DNA of 46,386 nt from Anaerolineae bacterium (GTDB lineage: Bacteria; Chloroflexota; Anaerolineae; UBA4142; SHND01): NCBI GenBank assembly GCA_020851635.1, contig JADZCJ010000010.1, positions 1-46,386 on the forward strand, written 5' to 3'. Numbering within the stretch: the stretch's first letter is position 1; every line of letters starts with the position of its first letter. This document shows positions 36,851 through 41,790 of this stretch, in pieces. The translations under genes were made by a program, and so were the position numbers. The notes beneath the pieces were generated by a model that was not told the origin of the DNA, ran no database searches, and saw only the letters and a program-made list of their open reading frames with translations.

Positions 36851-39535
36851 TTATTTCACAACCACATTCATCAACCGCCCCGGCACGTATGTGACCCGTT
36901 CGATGGTCTTGCCCTCCATCCATTTTTTGACGCCCGGTTCCGCGAATGCTTTTTCTTTTGCCTCATCCTCACTCACGCCAACGGGCAGTTCGAGCTTGCC
37001 GCGCACCTTGCCGTTAACCTGGATGACCAGCGTAAACGCCTCTTCTTTGGCTGCAGCTGCGTCGTACGCGGGCCATTTTTGTTGATGGACGCTGTACGCC
37101 TTGCCCCAGCGCGACCAGATTTCTTCTGCCATGAACGGCGCAATGGGCGCCAACATCAACAGCAGCGTGTTCAGCGCGTTGTCCCACACCGCCGTCGGAT
37201 ACGTGGCAGTGTCCTGTGCGCGAATCAGGACATTCGTCAACGACATGAGCGACGAAATCACCGTGTTGAACGCAAAGTCGTTGACATCGTCCTCGACCTT
37301 TTTCAGCGTCTGATGCAGCGAGCGGCGGAGGGACTTGATTTGTTCATCGGTCGCGGCGGGCAGGTCCGGGTTGGGTTCCGCGCCCAACAGCAAATTCCAC
37401 ACGCGCGTCAACCAGCGAAAGGTGCCCGCCAGCCCATCCGTCTGCCAGGGAGTCGCCATCGTAAAATCGCTGATGAACATTTCATAGGCGCGCAGGGCAT
37501 CTGCACCGAATTGTTCGACCATTTCGTCGGGCGTGATGACGTTGCCTTTGGATTTTGACATTTTTTCATATTTGCCGTCCTTGAGCTGCGGCGACAGGAT
37601 CATGCCCTGGTTGCGCAGGCGCTGAAATGGTTCGACGAACGAGATAATCCCCAAATCGTAGAGCACTTTGGTCCAAAAGCGCGCGTACAACAAGTGCATG
37701 ACGGCGTGTTCCGCGCCACCCACATACGTATCCACCGGCAGCCAATAGTTGACCTCTTTCGGGTCAAAGGCGCGCGCTTGATTCTGCGGGTCGGCAAAAC
37801 GCATATAGTACCACGAAGAACACGCAAAGGTGCCCATCGTGTCGGTCTCGCGGCGACCCGGTGTGCCGTCGGGCAAAGTGACGTTTACAAATTCCGGAAT
37901 GGTTGCGAGCGGTGATTCACCCGTCGCGGTTGGTTCGTACGAATTTACATCGGGCAGTTCGACCGGCAGCGACTCGGGCGAGACCGGCGCTTCGCCGTCT
38001 GCCGTATGAACGATTGGAATCGGCGTGCCCCAGTAGCGCTGGCGGCTGATCCCCCAATCGCGGAATTTATAGTTGATGCGCTTGGCGCCAATGCCCTTTC
38101 CCTCCAGCCATTGCGTCACCTGGGCAACCGCGACATCCGCGCCTGTCCCATCGAACGGACCGGAATTGACCATGACGCCGTCATGCGGAAACGCGCGCTC
38201 CATCGTGTCCGCGTCCAGCGTTTCACCTTGCGGTTGAATGACGACGCGGATGGGCAGCTTGAATTTGCGCGCAAATTCAAACTCGCGCTGGTCGTGCGCG
38301 TGGACCGCCATGATCGCCCCCGTGCCATAGGTCAGCATCACATAGTCCGCCACCCAAATCGGGATGCGTTCGTCGTTCACGGGATTGACCGCATACGAGC
38401 CGGTAAATACTCCCGTTTTTTCTTTGCCTTCTTCGGCGCGCTCGACTTCGGTCTTGGCTTTGGATTCTTTGACATATTGGTTCACGCGCGCTTTGTGCTG
38501 TGGCGTGACCAGTTTTTCGACAAAAGGATGCTCGGGCGCCAGCACCATAAAGGTTGCGCCCCACAGCGTATCGGGTCGGGTCGTGAAAATGCGCAAAGGA
38601 CCGGCATCGGTCACAAAATCCACTTGTGCGCCGACGCTCTTGCCAATCCAGTTGCGCTGCATCAATTTGATGTGGTCGGGCCAATCAATCGTATCCAAAT
38701 CATTGATCAAGCGTTCGCTGTACTCGGTGATCCGAAAAAACCACTGCGGCAGCAGTTTTTTCTCGACCAGCGCGCCGCTGCGCCAGCCGCGCCCGTCAAC
38801 CACTTCTTCATTCGCCAGCACGGTCTTGTCCACCGGGTCCCAATTTACAAACGACGCTTTGCGATATGCCAAACGAAAATTGGACAGAAATTCGCTGCGC
38901 TCCTTTTTGCCAAAGGAATTCCACTGCTCGGCTGTCACCTCCGCATGTGGGTTTGGGATGTTGCCGGCGCCCGAAACGCCCAATTCGTTTTCCAATTCAG
39001 AAATCGGACGCGCGGCGTTCAGACGCGGGTCGTACCACGCATGATACAATTGCAAAAAAATCCACTGCGTCCAGCGATAATATTCGGGCGTGGACGAGTT
39101 GATTTCGCGCGACCAATCGAACGAAATTCCAATCAGACGGAACTGCCGTTTGTAGTTTGCCGAGTACTGGGCGATCAACCTGGCGGGATTGGTTTTCATT
39201 TTGATCGCCGCGTTCTCGGCAGGCAAGCCGAACGCGTCCCAGCCCATCGGATGCAGCACGTTATAGCCCTTCATACGGTAATAACGGCTCAACACATCGG
39301 TCGGGACATAATTGCGGCAGTGTCCCACGCTCAAGCCATCGCCCGACGGATAGGGGAAAAAATCCAGGATGTATGCTTTGGGACGCTCGTCCGCCGGCGA
39401 GGTCTTGTACAATTCGTCCTGTTCCCATTTTTGCGTCCAGCTCGCTTCAAAGTCCTGCGGCACATATTTGGCTGGGTCGGCGTTGGCAGCAGTGGCTTGC
39501 GCGGATACAGGTCGCTCTTGAATCGTAGTTTCCAT
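36851..39535 (-). CDS. leuS: leucyl-tRNA synthetase
   Basis: An 894-aa class I synthetase that charges tRNA-Leu. The N-terminal FFPYPSGDGL leads into the HIGH-type motif, here S-V-G-H (residues 69-72), with Ser in place of the first His. The segment GYNVLHPMGWDAFGLPAENAA follows. The editing (CP1) insert is present, as in GTGAIMAVHAHDQREFEF, with the editing Asp in the VHAHD region. The KMSKS motif is intact (KMSKSKGNVI), followed by the anticodon-binding region and the C-terminal domain. The ATG at 39535 has a GGAG box. It is the third gene after a T-box whose specifier reads CUC (Leu), so it is likely induced when tRNA-Leu is uncharged. Confidence 0.96.
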   Translation of the reverse strand: METTIQERPVSAQATAANADPAKYVPQDFEASWTQKWEQDELYKTSPADERPKAYILDFFPYPSGDGLSVGHCRNYVPTDVLSRYYRMKGYNVLHPMGWDAFGLPAENAAIKMKTNPARLIAQYSANYKRQFRLIGISFDWSREINSSTPEYYRWTQWIFLQLYHAWYDPRLNAARPISELENELGVSGAGNIPNPHAEVTAEQWNSFGKKERSEFLSNFRLAYRKASFVNWDPVDKTVLANEEVVDGRGWRSGALVEKKLLPQWFFRITEYSERLINDLDTIDWPDHIKLMQRNWIGKSVGAQVDFVTDAGPLRIFTTRPDTLWGATFMVLAPEHPFVEKLVTPQHKARVNQYVKESKAKTEVERAEEGKEKTGVFTGSYAVNPVNDERIPIWVADYVMLTYGTGAIMAVHAHDQREFEFARKFKLPIRVVIQPQGETLDADTMERAFPHDGVMVNSGPFDGTGADVAVAQVTQWLEGKGIGAKRINYKFRDWGISRQRYWGTPIPIVHTADGEAPVSPESLPVELPDVNSYEPTATGESPLATIPEFVNVTLPDGTPGRRETDTMGTFACSSWYYMRFADPQNQARAFDPKEVNYWLPVDTYVGGAEHAVMHLLYARFWTKVLYDLGIISFVEPFQRLRNQGMILSPQLKDGKYEKMSKSKGNVITPDEMVEQFGADALRAYEMFISDFTMATPWQTDGLAGTFRWLTRVWNLLLGAEPNPDLPAATDEQIKSLRRSLHQTLKKVEDDVNDFAFNTVISSLMSLTNVLIRAQDTATYPTAVWDNALNTLLLMLAPIAPFMAEEIWSRWGKAYSVHQQKWPAYDAAAAKEEAFTLVIQVNGKVRGKLELPVGVSEDEAKEKAFAEPGVKKWMEGKTIERVTYVPGRLMNVVVK

Positions 39536-39583: not shown

Positions 39584-40123
39584 CTATTTGAGGTAGAGTT
39601 TTGCGCGCAGGTCATCGAGGTCGGTCCAACTATAAGCGACCTCGGTAACGGTCACATCGTCTATGTCATATTCTTTGCCGCCTGCAAGGACGCCGTCCAG
39701 GCGTTCATAGAACACCCGGACGGGGTTAGCTTCAATCGTCCATAGAAAAATCACGGTTTTGCCAAGTGCCTGCATTTCGCGCACCATTCGTGAAAACAAT
39801 TTACTGCCAATGCCGCGGCGCTGGTATTGCGGCAGGACGTGGAGCGCCACCAGCTCACATTCCCACGGTTCAAATTCTTCGGGCTTTACTTTGCCCAGCG
39901 CATAGCCGACGAGCTCGTTGTCAGTTGTGACCGCGACAAATACGGGGTCTGCCCCGGGCGCACCCAGCAGGTCGCGCCAATCTTGCGTCTGTTCGCCCTC
40001 GGTCATTTGTTCGAAATACGATGACGGAAAAAAGCGCGCATAAGCGGCGCGATAGCTCGTGACTTGGACGTGCGCGATACCGGCACTGTCGGCAGGCGCT
40101 GCACGTCGGATCTCGATGTTCAT
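39584..40123 (-). CDS. GNAT acetyltransferase in the leuS operon
   Basis: A 179-aa GNAT-family acetyltransferase. It opens MNIEIRRAAPADSAGIAHVQ, typical for the fold. The acetyl-CoA loop is QYQRRGIGSKLF (Q-x-x-R-R-G-I-G), and the last strand carries EANPVRVFYERL. The substrate is unknown; relatives modify protein N-termini, amines or drugs. Its ATG overlaps the stop of the upstream hydrolase (ATGA), so they are translationally coupled. leuS starts 48 bases downstream. Placement behind a Leu T-box suggests expression during leucine shortage. Confidence 0.88.
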   Translation of the reverse strand: MNIEIRRAAPADSAGIAHVQVTSYRAAYARFFPSSYFEQMTEGEQTQDWRDLLGAPGADPVFVAVTTDNELVGYALGKVKPEEFEPWECELVALHVLPQYQRRGIGSKLFSRMVREMQALGKTVIFLWTIEANPVRVFYERLDGVLAGGKEYDIDDVTVTEVAYSWTDLDDLRAKLYLK

Positions 40124-40746
40124 TCCTGTAAAAATTCCGTAACCGTCTTGTTGAACCAGAGTGAATGTGTCAACTGCGCCCAATGACCGGTGTGTCCGAC
40201 CATGTCGGGGTCTCGCTGTTCCGCCGGAAAAATCACCAACCGGGAGTCGCGAATTGCCATGTTTAAAATGTGCGCCCACTGCGCCGGAATCAATTGGTCA
40301 TCCTGGTCCCAGACAATCAATGTCGGAGCTTGAATCTTGGCGAGCTGAGCCAGTCCCGGCTCTGTCGAGTCAAACAAGGAATCTACGAGGACCAGTTTGT
40401 CCACGCGCTCGGGGTAACGTTCCGCAATTCCCTGAACGATTTGCCCGCCCCACGACAAGCCGATTAAACTTGCCCGAGCAATTTCTTGAGCTTTCATGAG
40501 CTCGACAAGGGACGCCGCGTGCTCTGCTGTATCCAACGCCTCTTTAGGTTGATCTGACTCGCCATACCCCAACAACTCGACTGCATACACTCGCGCAAGC
40601 ATTGACAACGCATCTACGTTCTTTACCCAGGTCTGCCATGTGTTGCTGTCGCCAAAGCCGTGAACGAGAATCAGCGCAGGTCCTTCACCACCGACCACCG
40701 CATGAATTTTGCCGAAAGACGTAGGAATGAATTTATATTCGAGCAT
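40120..40746 (-). CDS. alpha/beta hydrolase in the T-box operon
   Basis: A 208-aa hydrolase of the alpha/beta fold. LILVHGFGDSNTWQTW is the oxyanion segment. The nucleophile elbow is G-L-S-W-G-G, the acid is in LIVWDQDDQLIP, and the His is probably that of VGHTGHWAQ. The protein is shorter than most relatives (about 260 aa), with a reduced cap region. The substrate is unknown. I chose the ATG at 40746, preceded by AAAGG; a GTG at 40785 lies closer to the T-box terminator. It is the first gene after the T-box, an unusual neighbour for leuS. Confidence 0.85.
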   Translation of the reverse strand: MLEYKFIPTSFGKIHAVVGGEGPALILVHGFGDSNTWQTWVKNVDALSMLARVYAVELLGYGESDQPKEALDTAEHAASLVELMKAQEIARASLIGLSWGGQIVQGIAERYPERVDKLVLVDSLFDSTEPGLAQLAKIQAPTLIVWDQDDQLIPAQWAHILNMAIRDSRLVIFPAEQRDPDMVGHTGHWAQLTHSLWFNKTVTEFLQE

Positions 40747-40797
40747 CTCGACCTTTGGCTCAATCGCAGAGGGTCGCCTCATCACAATCCGCGGAAA

Positions 40798-41075
40798 ATA
40801 AAAAAACCTTCATCCCCATTGGGACGAAGGCGTTTTGCTCCGCGGTACCACCCAAGTTAGCTGCCGTGCGTTGCCCGGCAATCTCGCTTTGAGCGCGTAA
40901 CGTGCGCATACGGCGCGCTCTAGAGTGGAAAAATTTCTGCCACGTTCAAGCGAACAGCTCGCGGGCGAGTTCGGTCTGAAAACGAGTGGTCTCTGGGTCC
41001 ACCGGATGTTGGGCTTGCACCTTGTTTTTCCCAACTCGCTGCAGAGATGACCTACTGCTCCCGGTCCATGCGGTT
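40798..41075 (-). ncRNA. T-box riboswitch leader, tRNA-Leu specific (specifier CUC)
   Basis: Read on the minus strand, the leader ends in the T-box hallmark GGGTGGTACCGCG, whose T-G-G-T would pair with an ACCA tRNA end (A73, as in tRNA-Leu). A terminator follows: CCTTCGTCCC pairing with GGGATGAAGG plus a T-run (40798-40830). In stem I, GAGCAG pairs with CTGTTC and GGTC with GACC, leaving AGTA opposite GAA, the usual loop-E arrangement. The specifier after GAA is CTC (40969-40967), a Leu codon. The distal part GAGTTGGG...GGTGCAAGCCCAAC is also typical. Uncharged tRNA-Leu should favour read-through into the hydrolase, GNAT and leuS genes. Confidence 0.93.
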
Positions 41076-41093
41076 ATTATTCTGTTTTTCAGG

Positions 41094-41166
41094 TGGAGCT
41101 GATCGGGCTCGAACCGACTACCTCATCGCTGCCAGCGACGCGCTCTCCCAGCTGAGCTACAGCCCC
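41094..41166 (-). tRNA. tRNA-Ala (anticodon GGC)
   Basis: A 73-nt cloverleaf. The acceptor stem GGGGCTG/CAGCTCC has the G3-U70 pair that marks alanine tRNAs. The anticodon loop is CTGGCAG, with anticodon GGC. The D stem (GCTC/GAGC) and T stem (GTCGG/CCGAT) are intact. The 3' CCA is not encoded. It lies about 20 bases upstream of the T-box leader on the same strand and could share its transcript. Confidence 0.97.
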
Positions 41167-41231
41167 ATATTGAGAATTTAGCGTGGTTCAGACAAATAAC
41201 ATGACAGACAGCAACAGAATTCAATCCAAAA

Positions 41232-41663
41232 TCAAGTATCGTTTTCCAATATTTCGCCAATAACGCCTTGCGCCAATGCATCCAGATAACGGCGGATCGC
41301 AAGTGAATAATAATGAACTACGCAGACACCCTTGTAACCGTCGCGCTTTTTGCTTCCAGGATTCTTCTTGACTGATCCTTCATAAACCGGTTGAGTGGAA
41401 TGCGTGTTACTTTCGACCAGTACTCTGTGAGGTCGCTTTCATTCATCCCTTTGCTAATGGCTAATTGACATCGAAACTTGCTCTCATCAATCTCAAAGTT
41501 TCGTCTCAAAAAGGCCATCCAATACCCAACTCTGCATCGTAGCCAAGGGCACCGCGCCACCGAGTTTGTTGATAATCTCGCTGTAACTCAAACCCGCCCA
41601 TCGCAACTCTCGAGCTTGTTCGCGCAATCCGGGCGGGTGTGGTGAACCACGACGATGCAACAT
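41232..41663 (-). pseudogene. decayed HTH-domain protein gene between two tRNA-Ala genes
   Basis: Three pieces of one protein can be read in different frames. The N-terminal piece starts at 41663 (MLHRRGSPH) and includes the helix-turn-helix LREQARELRWAGLSYSEIIN; it ends soon after. A second frame gives FLRRNFEIDESKFRCQLAIS and YWSKVTRIPLNRF. A third gives KKRDGYKGVCVVHYYSLAIR and RYLDALAQGVI, ending at 41232. The shift between the last two fits one T lost from a run: CGG-TTT-TAT-GAA would restore R-F-Y-E. The middle of the protein seems deleted. The reassembled C-terminus resembles an uncharacterised HTH-protein family I know from many bacteria but cannot name. Confidence 0.7.
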
Positions 41664-41680
41664 CGTTGGCGTTCTCCGAG

Positions 41681-41753
41681 TGGAGCAGAAGGGGCTCGAA
41701 CCCTCAACCTTCGCATTGCGAACGCGACGCGCTCCCAGTTGCGCCACTGCCCC
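41681..41753 (-). tRNA. tRNA-Ala (anticodon CGC)
   Basis: A 73-nt cloverleaf with acceptor stem GGGGCAG/CTGCTCC including G3-U70, D stem GCGC/GCGC, anticodon stem TCGCG/TGCGA, loop TTCGCAA (anticodon CGC) and T stem GAGGG/CCCTT. The 3' CCA is not encoded. It reads the GCG alanine codon. Confidence 0.96.
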
Positions 41754-41762
41754 GTTTTTTAT

Positions 41763-41790
41763 ATTGTACCCATTTGCGCAGACGCGTCAA
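41763..41790 (-). promoter_or_regulatory. sigma-70-type promoter of tRNA-Ala(CGC)
   Basis: On the minus strand TTGACG (41790-41785), a 16-base spacer and TACAAT (41768-41763) lie about ten bases before the tRNA 5' end, a good match to a housekeeping promoter. Confidence 0.7.

Follow-up and report, generated by a model that had tools for sequence, protein, structure and literature searches.

A leucine-specific T-box that probably closes a tRNA-Ala operon ahead of leuS in Anaerolineae

The classic T-box with a CUC (Leu) specifier is that of Bacillus subtilis ilv-leu (Marta et al. 1996, cited in PMC2494555). In the portions of PMC2494555 and PMC3766115 drawn on here, the T-boxes of Chloroflexi precede aminoacyl-tRNA synthetase and amino acid genes, the named examples in PMC2494555 being the ileS and trp genes of Dehalococcoides, and these portions make no mention of tRNA genes beside or inside a T-box. 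A search of the open-access literature likewise found no description of tRNA genes adjoining or lying inside T-boxes. Transcription of a protein gene from a tRNA promoter is itself familiar. In Escherichia coli, thrU-tyrU-glyT-thrT-tufB forms a tRNA-mRNA operon in which the tRNA promoter transcribes a downstream gene for a protein of the translation machinery.

Here we analysed a 46,386-nt stretch of DNA (hereafter the window; GCA_020851635.1, contig JADZCJ010000010.1, positions 1-46,386) from the 5.8-Mb genome of an Anaerolineae bacterium, in which a T-box leader lies between tRNA-Ala genes and leuS (Table 1). Like other transcriptional T-boxes (RF00230), this leader has a Stem I with loop E, a CUC specifier, the UGGU bulge, the RRRNG-Stem III-AA arrangement, an antiterminator/terminator pair and leuS downstream, and it agrees with the T-boxes already reported for the phylum in preceding a synthetase gene. 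Unlike them it is attached to tRNA-Ala genes, has no evident promoter of its own and has an alpha/beta hydrolase and a GNAT acetyltransferase ahead of leuS, while many of its relatives carry a tRNA-Ala gene in the Stem III loop. The likeness to the E. coli operon is that a protein gene of the translation machinery lies downstream of a predicted tRNA promoter; the difference is that here a tRNA-sensing riboswitch is placed between tRNA and mRNA, and that it is specific for an amino acid other than that of the putatively co-transcribed tRNA. We regard a Leu T-box that appears to end a tRNA-Ala operon as a novel form of transcriptional T-box; its tRNA sits at the 5′ edge in the window and is nested within Stem III in many relatives.

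Table 1. Positions of the elements of the tRNA-Ala/T-box/leuS locus in the window.
Feature	Position	Strand	Basis or remark
Predicted sigma70-type promoter TTGACG-16-TACAAT	41763..41790	-	10/12 matches; immediately 5′ of tRNA-Ala(CGC)
tRNA-Ala(CGC)	41680..41753	-	ARAGORN; Rfam 60.3 bits
513-nt insert between tRNA-Ala genes	41167..41679	-	decayed ORF remnant
tRNA-Ala(GGC)	41092..41166	-	ARAGORN; 15 nt before the Rfam T-box match
T-box leader (RF00230)	40817..41077	-	Rfam covariance-model match
Stem I with AGUA/GAA loop E	40958..41065	-	conserved with covariation across class Anaerolineae
Specifier codon CUC (Leu)	40967..40969	-	loop E position; cognate tRNA-Leu(GAG) in genome
Stem III (AGAUUGCCG / CGGCAGCU)	40859..40884	-	flanks AAGCG and AA; motif rule from PMC7778990
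T-box bulge UGGU	40847..40850	-	complementary to discriminator A73
Intrinsic terminator, GCCTTCGTCCCAATGGGGATGAAGGT then T7	40806..40831	-	terminator prediction
Alpha/beta hydrolase	40120..40785	-	Ser111-Asp163-His201 conserved
GNAT acetyltransferase	39584..40123	-	start within ATGA overlap
leuS, leucyl-tRNA synthetase	36851..39535	-	downstream of GNAT

At the Rfam gathering threshold a scan of the window returned tRNAs only, with no T-box. When the threshold was relaxed, RF00230 (gathering score 93) matched the leader across the full model (positions 1-219) with 69.7 bits and an E value of 3.7e-15; the scores of the genome's seven T-boxes span 70-85 bits, every one of them below gathering. 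The loop E region reads AGUA...GACC-GAA-CUC-GCCC, and the discriminator of tRNA-Leu(GAG), in a sequence read with G1-C72, is A73, which fits the UGGU bulge. The antiterminator aligned by the Rfam model is overlapped by the terminator (40831-40806), making the two structures mutually exclusive. The original prediction, made from the letters of the DNA, had called a T-box leader with this bulge and terminator and proposed a search with the Rfam model together with an inspection of the specifier; the full-length match and the CUC codon confirm, at the level of sequence, a Leu-specific transcriptional T-box. The interval given for it (39584-41075) takes in the T-box, the hydrolase and the GNAT gene, but stops short of the adjoining tRNA-Ala genes.

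The nearer of these, tRNA-Ala(GGC), is the genome's only hit to a GGC pattern. The insert that separates it from tRNA-Ala(CGC) has no predicted terminator on the minus strand; its decayed ORF, of about 230 aa, is intact in three other genomes (G001, G004 and G005; loci L226, L054 and L225), where it resembles a helix-turn-helix protein with an endonuclease-like domain and has no Pfam match. By chance, about 0.0025 tRNAs would be expected within 100 nt upstream of the seven T-boxes, and the genome has two, the second being a tRNA-Val before a Thr T-box. R1, a covariance model for the Leu Stem I, whose pairs show covariation, had hits in 86 of 120 genomes of class Anaerolineae. Upstream sequence was sufficient at 66 class loci; in 58 of these a tRNA lies within 150 nt upstream of the Leu T-box, always of the Ala isotype, and the remaining eight, which have no tRNA-Ala within that distance, count against an operon model. 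Of the 66 class genomes that carry both elements, 63 have tRNA-Ala(GGC) either inside the T-box (36) or no more than 450 nt upstream (27), and in 59 the GGC pattern has no other match, a single-copy status that rests on a strict pattern and draft genomes. On these counts the T-box/tRNA-Ala linkage is found throughout the class. Two leuS loci with no Leu T-box match (L124:5841-5916 and L136:4722-4922) still have a tRNA-Ala upstream of leuS, at a distance of 85 nt in the one that belongs to a Dehalococcoidales MAG; the link between tRNA-Ala and leuS may thus be older than the T-box, or may outlast it.

In the window the Stem III loop is short, and in relatives the same loop holds tRNA-Ala(GGC). 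A tRNA-Ala(GGC) gene separates Stem I from the antiterminator at 35 of 74 class loci and at 9 of 15 loci from other Chloroflexota, giving 44 surveyed loci in the phylum. In a contig labelled Thermoanaerobacteraceae (L175:3907-4210), the leuS T-box encloses a whole tRNA-Ala(GGC) gene whose CCA end is encoded, and of the sequences compared with its LeuS the nearest come from Moorellales and Pelotomaculum; given this Clostridia-type locus, the nested form may extend beyond Chloroflexota. The Rfam T-box model aligns across the nested tRNA as an insertion, with L175 scoring 114.1 bits, above gathering. Duplex energies of the tRNA flanks gave p = 0.11 and tracked flank length, and were replaced by a test of fixed arms that uses the context of Stem III (RRRNG-Stem III-AA; PMC7778990), in which the six bases after RRRNG are compared with the six before AA. 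In this test, which was designed after the duplex-energy result and the sequences had been seen, full 6/6 pairing around the tRNA is seen at 32 of 43 loci; arms swapped among genomes reach it in 13%, and 0 of 2000 permutations reached the observed sum. In minimum free energy folds, 35 of 45 cases formed a helix of 5 bp or more between the flanks, although the fold of the tRNA itself was poorly predicted. Judged by this pairing, the nested tRNA-Ala(GGC) occupies the Stem III loop. In members of the order with the tRNA upstream (e.g. L057, L060 and L225), imperfect repeats (copies of GGTTGTTAGG and their complement, for example) often make Stem III much longer, a further sign that this loop can hold large inserts.

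Promoters were scored as matches out of 12 to sigma70-type hexamers. The best minus-strand candidate between 36.7 and 42.0 kb is the one that precedes tRNA-Ala(CGC), and identical hexamers precede the same tRNA in G002; we predict it to be the promoter of the whole tRNA-Ala/T-box/leuS unit. Across the class, 51 of 61 loci have a promoter of at least 9/12 directly ahead of the first tRNA-Ala, compared with 2% of shuffles, and 4 of 61 have one in the spacer between tRNA and T-box. As a control, a promoter of 9/12 or better adjoins the leader in 27 of 35 other T-boxes from the order, and four Thr T-boxes with an upstream tRNA-Val score only 7-8. Thus T-boxes without a tRNA mostly have their own promoter and those with a tRNA mostly do not, and the window T-box appears to have no evident one. 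By these consensus scans, the window and most of the class show the layout of a tRNA-mRNA operon, with a promoter 5′ of the tRNA and no intervening promoter or terminator. Co-transcription is not universal, since the G038, G071 and G120 lineages have a separate full promoter (TTGACA-TATACT) between tRNA and T-box, and G050, G081 and G125 have a terminator-like hairpin there. Within the window, the best candidate before tRNA-Ala(GGC) matches 7/12, and the 513-nt insert that separates the two tRNAs may contain a promoter. A strong promoter or terminator isolating leuS, which would have spoken against the predicted operon, was also looked for: no strong separate promoter was seen, and the one weak candidate before leuS (39577-39549; 9/12), which counts against the operon model, is of a kind that occurs at chance level in this region.

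These scans bear on the plainest alternative, an ordinary Leu T-box operon with an unrecognised promoter of its own, to which the tRNA-Ala genes are mere syntenic neighbours. T-boxes normally carry their own promoter, the spacer does contain one in a few lineages, and synteny by itself can hold neighbours together. However, spacers of 16-35 nt leave scant room for a promoter, with none reaching 9/12 in any of the 26 loci whose spacers measure up to 35 nt; the tRNA is nested within the T-box itself in the 44 Chloroflexota loci; and the linkage reaches other classes and the Clostridia-type contig. We consider this alternative unlikely.

It is instead probable, in our assessment, that the Leu T-box is a conditional terminator of the tRNA-Ala operon. 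The original prediction saw the T-box solely as the leader of a leuS operon, missing its apparent membership in a tRNA-Ala transcription unit and the lack of an evident promoter of its own. From the sequence elements, the specifier, the placement of promoter and terminator, their conservation and the Stem III pairing, we infer co-transcription, processing and regulation as follows. RNA polymerase would start at the strong promoter before tRNA-Ala(CGC) and transcribe both tRNA-Ala genes and then the Leu T-box. Transcription would end at the T-box terminator when tRNA-Leu is charged, and only the tRNAs would be made. Uncharged tRNA-Leu(GAG), bound through CUC and UGGU, would let the antiterminator form and permit read-through into the hydrolase, GNAT and leuS genes, the first two being accessory read-through genes. 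The output of leuS would then be gated by leucine, and that of tRNA-Ala would be independent of it because both tRNAs lie 5′ of the terminator. The wider survey agrees with this layout: no tRNA occurs within 700 nt 3′ of the T-box core in the surveyed loci, so transcription of the tRNAs would go ahead with or without termination at the T-box.

A fuller version, to which we give an even chance, is that Chloroflexota contain a composite RNA. In this version a tRNA-Ala operon has a Leu T-box as its terminator, and a nested and often single-copy tRNA-Ala(GGC) is excised from the Stem III loop, leaving the riboswitch to work or survive as two pieces. In the nested architecture the base of Stem III would hold the two riboswitch halves together after tRNA excision; in window-type genomes, 3′ processing of the tRNA-Ala at the 5′ edge would set the 5′ end of the leader. 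If this is true, a single transcript physically couples tRNA maturation with leucine sensing. With one tRNA sensed and a second tRNA gene carried at the edge or core of the riboswitch, it would also follow that Stem III of a T-box can accommodate an entire functional RNA, and a question of order would arise, namely whether RNase P and RNase Z cut before or after the termination decision. Such a riboswitch would further provide a natural case of an aminoacyl-tRNA synthetase whose promoter belongs to a tRNA but whose expression is gated by the charging of a different tRNA. The locus also serves as a warning that operon calling based on promoters misses T-box operons joined to tRNA genes.

Downstream of the T-box, leuS is not the first gene, as had been predicted: the order is T-box, hydrolase, GNAT, leuS, with an ATGA shared by hydrolase and GNAT (40120-40123), and with 48 nt and no overlap between GNAT and leuS. 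For the hydrolase, a short protein, the annotated GTG probably lies upstream of the true start; an ATG at about 40746 is likelier because orthologues begin there. Besides this genome, nine relatives in the order have the hydrolase between T-box and leuS, two of them across contig breaks. Its dN/dS is about 0.1 among close relatives and the catalytic Ser-Asp-His triad is invariant among the orthologues compared, which indicates purifying selection on a gene that is conserved in the order. The GNAT gene occupies this position in 2 of 20 genomes, this one and G004.

The original prediction suggested that the two enzymes may act in leucine supply, peptide breakdown, detoxification or tRNA quality control. 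A related proposal, which concerns only these passenger genes and is compatible with the tRNA-Ala operon, is that they are working parts of a leucine or tRNA-quality response, for instance by hydrolysing aminoacyl or thiolactone products of LeuRS editing. Retention of the hydrolase in its slot, with its low dN/dS and invariant triad, is in keeping with such a role, as is a distant alpha/beta hydrolase (about 30% identical) in the same slot of G048, a member of another family. However, within the genus the hydrolase is a C-terminal remnant in G002, is frameshifted in G001 (one of the nine) and is absent between T-box and leuS in G003, and GNAT is shared with a single relative. The slot is also filled very differently elsewhere in the order and class, by ilvE, double NUDIX genes, a methyltransferase or others, or it is empty; ilvE (NCBIfam TIGR01122, 418 bits) is the commonest occupant elsewhere, at 16 loci by inspection. 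Comparisons of the hydrolase with PDB and NCBIfam gave generic alpha/beta-hydrolase relatives only, all far below equivalog cut-offs. These comparisons do not support the roles first suggested, and we doubt the response proposal, although a specific role in leucine metabolism is possible for the two enzymes. On the present comparison, hydrolase and GNAT are not a fixed leucine module, and the T-box-to-leuS slot is a variable place where genes come under putative Leu control. In the sister family (f2; L198-L211), about 110-125 aa appear to be inserted into LeuS itself near residues 435-452, and the open frames reach up to 1175 aa.

That this control would be by leucine, as predicted, follows from reading the specifier as CUC. 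The genome has the cognate tRNA-Leu(GAG), and GAACUC occurs in the T-boxes of relatives, and those of other genera precede leuS or ilvE. The alignment behind R1 (A1) was selected by a pattern containing AACTC, so that specifier invariance within it is partly built in; the support from downstream genes is independent of this selection. A serine reading, UCG after a one-nucleotide spacer (GAAC-UCG), draws on the single base found between GAA and codon in most T-boxes of the genome (GAAA-AUC for Ile, GAAA-UUC for Phe, GAAC-GUC for Val and GAAA-UCC for Ser), but is very improbable, since the Trp T-box before trpE has no spacer base (GAA-UGG), GAACUC precedes leuS and ilvE in relatives, and serS already has its own UCC T-box. 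The CUC/Leu reading therefore stands on these comparisons, and no non-Leu specifier was found.

The six other T-boxes of the genome precede pheS, trpE, valS, a glycosylase-like gene with serS, lysC-asd and an alaX-like gene. The Thr T-box before lysC-asd has tRNA-Val(GAC) 5-38 nt upstream (L011, G000:C15:95345-95676; also L093, L096 and L107), an arrangement that is conserved in the genus and makes a second tRNA/T-box tandem with no evident promoter of its own. In several genomes of the order, a T-box with an apparent AUC (Ile) specifier precedes an AlaXM-like alanyl-tRNA editing gene (L001/L008:3668-4776, L085, L089, L092, L097, L103 and L110). At the Ser (UCC) T-box (L013, G000:C144), a gene that resembles a mismatch-specific DNA glycosylase, named by eye from its sequence, lies ahead of serS and appears to be another passenger between T-box and synthetase.
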